Shown: one piece after another, positions 3,992 through 36,296 of the stretch
Position numbering within the stretch: the stretch's first letter is position 1
Layout of the letters: every line of letters begins with the position of its first letter
NCBI GenBank assembly: GCA_020854215.1
Contig: JADZFY010000233.1
Location: 1 to 39,397, forward strand
Direction of reading: 5' to 3'
Source of the DNA: Chitinophagaceae bacterium
GTDB taxonomy: Bacteria; Bacteroidota; Bacteroidia; Chitinophagales; Chitinophagaceae
Length of the DNA: 39,397 nt
Notes under the pieces: generated by a model
Databases searched by the model: none
The model's input: the letters and a program-made list of their open reading frames with translations, nothing else
Told to the model about the DNA's origin: nothing
Made by a program: the position numbers and the translations under genes

Positions 3992-5620
3992 TCATTCTAT
4001 AATAATTTGCCCCGCTTTTGTTCTGTTAACCCTTACAGCATAATCACTGCCTCCAAGTGATCTTATAACATAGCCTGGATTCTCCTTTTGTAAGGAAAGG
4101 CGTTTTTCATTTAGAAGAATATTTTTTGGTTTGAAAGAAAGCCGCAGGAATTCTGTACCCGTTTCATCTGTGGCTGTGTATTTAATTTTCCCAGGCTCAT
4201 AAACAACGTTTTTTAAAATGCCCTGCGCATACAATATATGGTTTTCACGTGGCGGCGCCCATTCAGGGATAGCGGCCAGGGCATGATAGAACATCCTGGG
4301 GCCTTCTCCGTAACAATCCGACCACCAGCTTGACACTCCTTTGCTTACGGGACTTTCGAATGCAAGTCCGATAGAATCGCTGCAATAGGTAACCCAGTTT
4401 AAAGAACGGTAGGCCTTTTCTTTATAGGCCGGATCTCCGGAAACTGCAAACCATTTAGCGCATTCTGCAGCGTACCGGGCAGTTTGATAATCCATTTTGG
4501 GCAAAAAATCATCCTGTTCGCCTACAAGGTTAGCTCCCCATTGCGTAGCGGGTTCGCCCTCGTTGCAACGCGTTACAAAATTTGTTTCCGTCCATTCTAT
4601 CATTTGAGGTATGTGGGTTTTCCATTGCGGATCGAATGATGGATTATCCAGGATATATAGAGCTGTATTGCTTTTACCCATATTACTTTTATAAGTATTG
4701 CTTTTAACATCGGTATCGGTATGTCCGTCGGCCCAGTACCCCGTTTGCATGGGATAGCGAAGCATAAATTCCCTCACCTTTTTCATTGTATTCCGGTATG
4801 CGGCTACGTTACCCGTGTTCGCTTTTACCAGGTGCTCTAACAGCGAATAGGCGCCTATCCAGTTTGCGCCATACGGTGCAGTTACTTCACCGGTATTCAT
4901 CACCACACGATACGGCCAAACCGATTGTTCCGCGTTGCCTGTTTTCGCTTTATCGGATAAAGTATTGGCAATATTGATTGCAGCGGTTTTAAACTTTTCT
5001 TTTCCTGTGTATAAATAAAGCCGGAAAAAAGTTAATCCCATATCGCCGGCATGATCCACCTGCACTTCATGTAATACAAAACGTTTGGCAGCGTCGAAGC
5101 CTTTGAACTCCATGTCGCCCGGGTTAGTGGTGGTGTACGGAAAATTTGGCCAGGCGAATGTAGCGGGCGTTGTACCATGATCAATAGCATACTCCGCGAG
5201 ATTTTCTGCAATGTGCATTACAGTGGTATCGCCGGTATACGCATAATATAAATGAGCCGACTCGAACCAGTTGGGAATTTTTTCACCAATATCGTTCATC
5301 CAGGCATCGGGTTCGTTCAAAATTTTTCCATCAGCTACTTTGTACGCGCAGTAAAAATAATATTGGGGGTACTCAGATCTGGGAGGCGGCCCCGGGCTGA
5401 AAGGCACCGATGTTTTTATAAAATTCCATCGCTGCCGAAGAAATAAATCATAGGCGCGGGATTGCGGCTGAATCCAGGAAATTAATTTTGACTGATCATC
5501 CAGAACAACCTTATGTGTAGCTATTGAGTCGGGCTTATCGGAGTAACGGTTAGATTGATGCTGAGCACACAAAGGGAGTGTGATTAAACAATTGATGATA
5601 ATGAATGCTGTTTTATTCAT
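3992..5620 (-). CDS. Secreted (alpha/alpha)6-barrel-like carbohydrate-active enzyme, family unassigned
   Basis: 542-aa ORF with signal peptide MNKTAFIIINCLITLPLCAQ; repeated helical segments with aromatic/acidic motifs typical of toroid glycosidases, lyases or epimerases. Confidence 0.6.
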   Translation of the reverse strand: MNKTAFIIINCLITLPLCAQHQSNRYSDKPDSIATHKVVLDDQSKLISWIQPQSRAYDLFLRQRWNFIKTSVPFSPGPPPRSEYPQYYFYCAYKVADGKILNEPDAWMNDIGEKIPNWFESAHLYYAYTGDTTVMHIAENLAEYAIDHGTTPATFAWPNFPYTTTNPGDMEFKGFDAAKRFVLHEVQVDHAGDMGLTFFRLYLYTGKEKFKTAAINIANTLSDKAKTGNAEQSVWPYRVVMNTGEVTAPYGANWIGAYSLLEHLVKANTGNVAAYRNTMKKVREFMLRYPMQTGYWADGHTDTDVKSNTYKSNMGKSNTALYILDNPSFDPQWKTHIPQMIEWTETNFVTRCNEGEPATQWGANLVGEQDDFLPKMDYQTARYAAECAKWFAVSGDPAYKEKAYRSLNWVTYCSDSIGLAFESPVSKGVSSWWSDCYGEGPRMFYHALAAIPEWAPPRENHILYAQGILKNVVYEPGKIKYTATDETGTEFLRLSFKPKNILLNEKRLSLQKENPGYVIRSLGGSDYAVRVNRTKAGQIIIE

Positions 5621-35408: not shown

Positions 35409-35978
35409 CAGGTTTTTGCATTACCTTCTAAATACGCTGTAGGAAATGATTTGAAATTTATTCCTTATAGTGACACTCATATATTTGTATGCTGATAGGG
35501 GTTGCTTTGCTTCTGAATTTTTTAGAAAAAAATGGCAACAATTATTGATTGTAAAGTTGATGGTTATCAAAAGAATTAGAATGAACCGGTGAGATCACTT
35601 TATGTTCCATCTTTTTCAATTCCATGTCATTTCTTTCTATTAGGCGCTAATTCGCGATTGCCGCGTTCTGTTATTCTATCATTGAATTGGGGAGGAGAAA
35701 GTAGTGGTAAACCTCTGTTGGAATTGAAAGGGTCGACGTATACTGCTTTGAATGGAGGATATACCCTGCAGGGTGGGGTAACCATTTTTTATTTTTTGGT
35801 TGATTAGAAGAAAATGGAATCAATTTACTTCCTCCGTTGGAGGCGACGGGTTGTTTAAAGATTCTGATTTCGGAGTGAGTAGGATATTCAGGAGGCCTGC
35901 CTGCGTTCTAAACCCGTACAAGCACCAACATAACACTTACTTAATTTTTCTGAATAGAGAATATAACAGAATACCACA

Positions 35979-36013
35979 AAATAAAAAACCCCGGCATAGT
36001 TGCTGAGGTTTTG
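35979..36013 (-). terminator. Rho-independent terminator distal to tRNA-Lys repeat
   Basis: Minus strand AAAACCTCAGCAACTATGCCGGGGTTTTTT. Confidence 0.6.
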
Positions 36014-36222
36014 TGATCCCGCTGGGACTTCCCCTGTCAGGGGATAAACTTCTCGTCCCGGATTTTGCTAACGCAAAAAAAGCGATCCACTATCGTGCAT
36101 CGCTTAGTTATCACTTCGTGATCCCGCTGGGACTTCCCCTGTCAGGGGATAAACTTCTCGTCCCCGATTTTGCTAACGCAAAAAAAGCGATCCACTATCG
36201 TGCATCGCTTAGTTATCACTTC
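36013..36222 (-). repeat. Tandem 105-bp repeat, two units, each with the tRNA-Lys 3' end, a hairpin and a terminator
   Basis: Units 36013-36117 and 36118-36222 differ at one base (36060 g vs 36165 c). Each starts with GTGATCCCGCTGGGACT, matching the 3' end of the adjacent tRNA at 36223-36239. Confidence 0.95.
36185..36210 (-). terminator. tRNA-proximal rho-independent terminator (second copy at 36080-36105)
   Basis: Minus strand AAGCGAT-N12-ATCGCTT followed by T run. Confidence 0.75.
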
Positions 36223-36223
36223 G

Positions 36224-36296
36224 TGATCCCGCTGGGACTCGAACCCAGGACCCATACATTAAAAGTGTATTGCTCTACCAACTGAGCTACGGAATC
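36224..36296 (-). tRNA. tRNA-Lys(UUU)
   Basis: Minus strand GATTCCGTAGCTCAGTTGGTAGAGCAATACACTTTTAATGTATGGGTCCTGGGTTCGAGTCCCAGCGGGATCA folds as a 73-nt cloverleaf with anticodon TTT. Confidence 0.95.

Follow-up and report, generated by a model that had tools for sequence, protein, structure and literature searches.

The window analysed here, a 39,397-nucleotide stretch of a Chitinophagaceae genome (assembly GCA_020854215.1, contig JADZFY010000233.1), contains one tRNA gene, a tRNA-Lys(UUU). The gene lies on the minus strand, so that the two 105-bp units adjoining it are both downstream (3′) of the tRNA (Table 1). The two units differ at one base, as the initial annotation had reported (G at 36060 versus C at 36165), and two copies of 105 bp at 99% identity are, judged from the sequence, far beyond chance. 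The 17-mer GTGATCCCGCTGGGACT is found in the whole window at 36013, 36118 and 36223 and at no other position, which confirms the spacing of 105 bp described earlier; only the copy at 36223 forms part of a complete tRNA, also as described. The source genome is a 509-contig draft, so that the existence of the unit is better established than the exact number of its copies in the strain. We rejected an assembly artefact as the source of the unit itself, because units recur in independent genomes, including the single-contig genome G608. A 90-aa open reading frame on the plus strand (36013-36285) is antisense to the tRNA and the units and was taken as spurious. None of the known RNA families in Rfam matched the unit.

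Table 1. Features of the tRNA-Lys locus, in window coordinates.
Feature	Positions	Strand	Evidence
tRNA-Lys(UUU), intact, target of the unit; T-loop nt A58 at 36239	36223..36296	-	ARAGORN; Rfam tRNA 73.1 bits
tRNA-proximal 105-bp unit	36118..36222	-	sequence; covariance model R1/R2 matches
T1, terminator-like hairpin AAGCGAT...ATCGCTTTTTTT, proximal unit	36180..36210	-	sequence and RNA fold
Left arm GGGAC, proximal unit	36160..36164	-	sequence
Conserved unpaired core GAGAAGTTTA, proximal unit	36150..36159	-	near-invariant in alignments A2/A3
Inner hairpin TCCCCTGACAGGGGA, proximal unit	36135..36149	-	sequence
17-nt copy of the tRNA-Lys 3′ end (A58 to last base), proximal unit	36118..36134	-	sequence
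tRNA-distal 105-bp unit	36013..36117	-	sequence; covariance model matches
T1, distal unit	36075..36105	-	sequence and RNA fold
Left arm GGGAC, distal unit	36055..36059	-	sequence
Conserved unpaired core GAGAAGTTTA, distal unit	36045..36054	-	sequence
Inner hairpin, distal unit	36030..36044	-	sequence
17-nt copy of the tRNA-Lys 3′ end, distal unit	36013..36029	-	sequence
T2, hairpin and T run after the last tRNA-end copy	35983..36010	-	homologous sequence directly 3′ of tRNA-Lys in G007
Decayed N-terminal fragment of a small GIY-YIG nuclease gene	35888..35980	-	HMM match, 25 bits, E 1e-5

Read along the tRNA strand, each unit consists of a spacer, the hairpin T1 with a T run that overlaps the small hairpin TTTTTGCGTTAGCAAAA, the arm GGGAC, the core GAGAAGTTTA, the inner hairpin TCCCCTGACAGGGGA and, closing the unit, the 17 nt AGTCCCAGCGGGATCAC, which are those of tRNA-Lys from A58 to the last base. 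The arm is complementary to GTCCC in the tRNA copy, and in relatives this pairing extends up to 11 bp (pair counts). The nested hairpin and the AAGCGAT...ATCGCTT hairpin are both present as the initial annotation gives them. A consensus terminator scan did not call T1, because its loop is too long. The terminal structure of the inner hairpin is variable, from 3 to about 80 nt among relatives. At positions 7-10 of the core (GAGAAGTTTA or GAGAAGCCTG) the changes are almost only transitions, and they would be synonymous in the frame AGA AGY YTR (Arg-Ser-Leu); for the changes TTTA/CCTG a synonymous-codon reading and a paired-base reading each fit in part.

The locus had been interpreted as a tandem duplication of the tRNA 3′ end with its own terminator. 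This did not hold, as T1 moves with the unit, while T2 is unrelated to it: the sequence after the last copy and that beside the tRNA are 34% identical over 30 nt. We compared the window by blastn with the corresponding locus (L079) of the same-genus genome G007. The two are homologous across the upstream gene and the entire tRNA, and homology resumes at tRNA nt 58, with a jump in offset of 210 bp, or exactly 2 x 105. In G007 the homologue of T2 and a GIY-YIG gene stand directly 3′ of tRNA-Lys, with no units between. A second pair is formed by L045 and a congener of its species (G050), which are syntenic up to the tRNA end, the unit being in L045 only. For 34 loci with a single unit we compared the 30 nt that follow the tRNA with the 30 nt that follow the copy, and the median identity was 0.39. 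As the two flanks of a single unit are in most cases unrelated, the units have usually arisen by insertion of new sequence rather than by plain or tandem duplication. Units of multi-unit arrays are mostly close to one another, the exception being L046, where two units have different inner parts; tandem amplification is secondary to insertion. Upstream of the tRNA-Lys(CUU) of L046 there is also a truncated tRNA-like sequence with the D-loop insert TCCCGATAGCTATCGGGA.

A search with the core, allowing at most one mismatch, found it in no more than 13 of the 399 genomes in the family, in some cases by chance, and yielded loci behind tRNA-Lys of both isoacceptors in several genera. It was in these loci, retrieved by the core sequence alone, that we first noticed the complementarity of the arm. 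In the best-kept units the arm matches the reverse complement of host tRNA nt 59-69 at all 11 nt, and it follows its tRNA, being CCCGCTGGGAC at Lys(UUU) versus CCCGCAGGGAC at Lys(CUU). We used one covariance model made from Lys units (R1) and a general one (R2); the alignments A2 and A3 consist of real sequence with long terminal loops trimmed. R1 matched in 16 of 399 genomes of the family and 32 of 396 of the phylum, in many cases behind other tRNAs, where units had the own 3′ end of each, and R2 matched in 10 of 298 genomes of one order and 21 of 92 of another family. Across the sampled groups of Bacteroidota 3-23% of genomes had matches to the models, the weakest of which, without a tRNA, are probably due to chance.

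Altogether 57 distinct units were found behind tRNAs of 12 isotypes (Lys, Leu, Ser, Arg, Trp, Met, Asn, Ile, Thr, Ala, Gln and His). They match the 3′ end of their own tRNA at 14 or more of 17 nt, compared with a mean of 8.8 for other isotypes. In G459 tmRNA also has units behind it. A unit unique to this locus, and lacking next to any other tRNA, would have contradicted the initial annotation and is not what we found. Its proposal of a mobile hairpin element targeting tRNA 3′ ends is well supported by the same core and architecture at 12 isotypes and tmRNA, the tRNA-specific arms and the exact pairs of unoccupied and occupied loci. The two helices covary (95 double-change cells versus 39.0±4.7 in shuffled data, reached in 0 of 500 shuffles), in a test somewhat inflated by the fact that the rows of A3 were partly picked for pairing. 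At two loci (L142 and L148, in G608 and G561), units without a terminator lie behind tRNA-Ile or tRNA-Ala, in clusters resembling rRNA operon spacers; in G608 those of the tRNA-Ile/tRNA-Ala cluster are present in three identical copies. Three tRNA-Ser genes of the window's own genome (L028, L031 and L032) have other long tail repeats, which contain inverted repeats and are without the GAGAAG core.

The repeats behind tyrT of E. coli are a decades-old observation, with no annotation beyond that of an RNA. We found that the E. coli repeats behind tyrV and in the tyrT-tyrV spacer have CGGGGAAGGRT-GAGAA, then a variable part, and end in AATCCTTCCCCCACCACCA, which is the end of tRNA-Tyr from A58. 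Their arm pairs with the tRNA copy at 10 of 11 nt. The juncture is GGGAC followed by GAGAAG in the window and CGGGGAAGGAT followed by GAGAAGC in E. coli; in the layout test on E. coli and Salmonella, none of 20,000 shuffles placed GAGAA behind an equally good arm. Units behind proK, in Salmonella as well as E. coli, have a proK-specific end and the arm GAGGAT-GAGAACC, and whole units at E. coli proK are gained or lost between strains. Sequences like the tyrT repeat occur in 4,711 of 5,426 E. coli genomes, at 1-14 places in each. The RtT covariance model (Rfam RF00391) gave no match to the window up to E 5 and none to six Bacteroidota loci up to E 0.01, in contrast to 99-138 bits for the E. coli and Salmonella loci. 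We, therefore, call the window unit RtT-like rather than a member of RF00391. The tyrT and proK repeats, which share the layout of the Bacteroidota units, appear to be their enterobacterial counterparts. No GIY-YIG genes are annotated next to the enterobacterial RtT loci that we examined.

The 105-bp units have no GIY-YIG gene between the tRNA and the tRNA copy; the decayed one lies just beyond them. An intact homologue (Pfam PF01541) is found at the equivalent position in L045/L061, and the fragment in the window is the remnant of an older cassette. Genes of another kind were found in G444 (L160:16974-19020), where an ImmA/IrrE-type peptidase (PF06114) and a DUF4411/PIN protein (PF14367) are encoded between tRNA-Leu and its hairpin unit, 1.9 kb away; the pair is a possible toxin-antitoxin cassette. 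In eight genomes small GIY-YIG genes begin 15-45 nt behind Asn, Ala, Leu, Arg, Glu, Asp, Lys and Met tRNAs. Most of these genes are followed by a copy of the adjacent tRNA in which the anticodon arm or the T-loop is interrupted by a palindrome, often TCCCGC..GCGGGA. In a GIY-YIG tree of 42 rows, 13 of which begin no more than 60 nt from a tRNA 3′ end, the nucleases sort by tRNA target and not by host (Asn 99/96, from three genera and two families; Asp 97/95), and the nine GIY-YIGs that are not linked to a tRNA fall into a clade of their own (99/98). Such lineages, tRNA-specific across hosts, are a property of the GIY-YIG cassettes and not of the hairpin units. In G644 GAGAAG units alternate with GIY-YIG cassettes behind tRNA-Asn. 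GIY-YIG genes are, however, near a minority of hairpin units only, and the cassette tails, unlike the GAGAAG units, mostly have an interrupted anticodon arm; in view of the differing tails, the two could be separate elements with a common target.

The window's own genome has further tandem arrays behind tRNAs. In one (L011, contig C118) tRNA-Phe (4244-4316) is followed by two tandem GIY-YIG cassettes, each of which closes with a 3′ copy of tRNA-Phe that has the palindrome TCCGAARCTTCGGA in place of the T-loop. In another (L027, contig C357) tRNA-Pro(ggg) at 4513 has at least three tandem units with partial tRNA-Pro copies at the end, the anticodon arm of these copies being replaced by TCCCGCATYAGGGCGGGA. 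At L239, L221, L225 and L250 a GIY-YIG reading frame enters or reaches an intact downstream tRNA (Pro, Asp or Arg), a mirror of the cassettes. The phage GIY-YIG nuclease SegB cuts inside tRNA genes at the motif RAWTSGAAC and drives tandem amplification (PMC13096335); on our reading of the sequence, this motif would be the complement of the tRNA T-loop. In the literature on RtT, on DUF4411 with ImmA and on tRNA-linked GIY-YIG in bacteria we found no paper describing such units or cassettes, and SegB is the nearest published case to the bacterial GIY-YIG cassettes (PMC13096335).

On balance we favour the view that the 105-bp unit is a small, non-coding, mobile RtT-like element that inserts at tRNA 3′ ends by repair of a break through copying, with GIY-YIG nucleases as the likeliest source of the break. 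Insertion is at T-loop nt 58, and no part of the tRNA is lost, since the stretch from nt 58 to the tRNA end is copied on the far side of the insert. A new spacer, in many cases with a terminator-like hairpin, is added on the near side, and behind the spacer follows the hairpin, made of the tRNA-matched complementary arm, the conserved unpaired core GAGAAGYYTR and the variable inner hairpin. Tandem gain and loss of units is seen in the E. coli counterpart. The element, mostly gene-less, thus appears to be, or to have been, mobile; this we infer from comparisons between genomes, a transposition event itself having been observed in none.

An alternative that we think unlikely, but that has to be weighed first, is that the unit is a host-maintained structured RNA (a trailer, decoy or regulator of tRNA-Lys), kept for its function like the annotated RtT RNA. 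The compensatory pairing between the arm and the tRNA strand, which includes G-U pairs, would fit such a role, as would the near-invariant core and the annotation of the E. coli counterpart as a non-coding RNA. The unit, however, is patchy even within the genus, where it is present at 2 of 13 tRNA-Lys(UUU) loci, one of these being decayed (L082), and it has decayed in G006 and G002 as well. Furthermore, it is carried by many unrelated tRNAs, and also lies between tRNA-Ile and tRNA-Ala genes. Its position behind a terminator-like hairpin means that it is probably poorly transcribed, which also counts against maintenance as an RNA.

The block from the T-loop to the 3′ end is a usual identity block for tRNA integrases. 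The duplication of nt 58 to the end might, thus, suggest scars of tyrosine-integrase elements (ICEs or prophages) that used the tRNA 3′ end as attB, integrated serially and then lost their interior. At the tRNA-Lys loci of the genus (L075-L098), near-identical sequences abut tRNA-Lys(UUU) as well as tRNA-Lys(CUU), in different genomes; several families of integrated elements would seem to use both tRNA-Lys genes. These directly abutting sequences, however, are without the GAGAAG core, and the units themselves have no integrase, so that the serial use of an att site in the usual sense, another of the possibilities raised earlier, was not borne out. Among the ORFs listed for L160 and L163 no integrase gene was evident. 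Random internal deletions, in addition, would not leave the same exact hairpin behind tRNAs of 12 isotypes, each time with arms specific to the tRNA. A phage or plasmid origin was rejected: the unit is unmatched in the collections of either, and the core and 17-mer matches in viral contigs resemble protein-coding sequence, those of the core being without a tRNA end. We consider integrase scars improbable. Simple slippage during replication, or a tandem copy of the tRNA gene tail that has since decayed, accounts for the second 105-bp unit and for the copy-number changes at proK, and we accept it for tandem amplification, but as the origin of the unit it is very improbable, as the two flanks of the first unit differ, its core and arm are absent from the tRNA and its surroundings, and the core is common to Bacteroidota and, in part, E. 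coli.

Insertion of a mobile element at nt 58 would begin with a break in the T-loop that is repaired by copying; this would explain the breakpoint, the duplication and the difference between the near and far sides. The leading candidates for the source of the break are the small GIY-YIG nucleases of the cassettes directly behind tRNA genes, and the disrupted anticodon arm or T-loop in the tRNA copies of these cassettes may serve in self-protection. Once a first unit is in place, recombination between the repeated tRNA ends would make and remove tandem copies, as at E. coli proK. To judge from the gene-bearing units (ImmA/IrrE with DUF4411, and the GIY-YIG cassettes), the 105-bp form appears to be the cargo-free version. 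The left arm corresponds to tRNA nt 59-69 in reverse complement and does not copy the T-stem strand of the tRNA itself; plain copying from an upstream donor fails to explain a matching arm at a new tRNA. More tentatively, we propose a tRNA-anchored cassette system of Bacteroidota and, in related form, of enterobacteria. Its hairpin-ended units, mostly empty and sometimes with nuclease or toxin-antitoxin-like genes, might be placed next to the tRNA, at T-loop nt 58, by a GIY-YIG nuclease that cuts tRNA genes or by another enzyme, the tRNA being rebuilt each time and the complementary arm made during insertion. Short gene cassettes parked at tRNA ends are also indicated by these data.

Partial tRNA copies, or tRNA gene fragments, are produced by mobile elements inserting at tRNA genes (PMC9897764). 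Those fragments mark the end of a large integrated element, in contrast to the tRNA copy described here, which is about 100 bp away from its tRNA inside a conserved hairpin. Integron gene cassettes resemble the units in being short, in having at the end an imperfect hairpin with a variable terminal structure (attC), in forming tandem arrays anchored at one site, and in their occasional toxin-antitoxin-like cargo. The units differ from them in that no integrase was seen, the site is a tRNA end and the array matches its own tRNA; the unit was rejected as an attC, the A2/A3 consensus being without GTTRRRY-type boxes.

The free-standing GIY-YIG homing endonucleases (for example, T4/T6 SegB) resemble the cassettes in that their small genes are linked to tRNAs of many isotypes, and tandem amplification is common to both. 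SegB, however, is a phage gene within tRNA arrays, whereas the bacterial cassettes lie directly behind single tRNA genes, mostly with an interrupted tRNA copy at the end, and cleavage by their nucleases is putative. The small tRNA-linked GIY-YIG nucleases are, thus, candidate bacterial homing endonucleases.

The closest likeness is to the 178-bp repeats of E. coli tyrT (RtT, RF00391). They too are tandem units directly behind a tRNA, each closing with the tRNA 3′ end from A58, with an arm complementary to the tRNA copy and GAGAA immediately after it; they vary in copy number and serve more than one tRNA, the proK units having their own ends. They differ from the Bacteroidota units in an inner part that is longer and unrelated, and in the core, GAGAA[GC]CTYCG versus GAGAAGYYTR-TCCCG. 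The same layout behind 12 isotypes and tmRNA in another phylum, with pairs of unoccupied and occupied loci, suggests that the long-known tyrT repeats may be one instance of a widespread, insertable tRNA-tail element, and the origin, mechanism and function of tyrT-type repeats thereby become directly testable.
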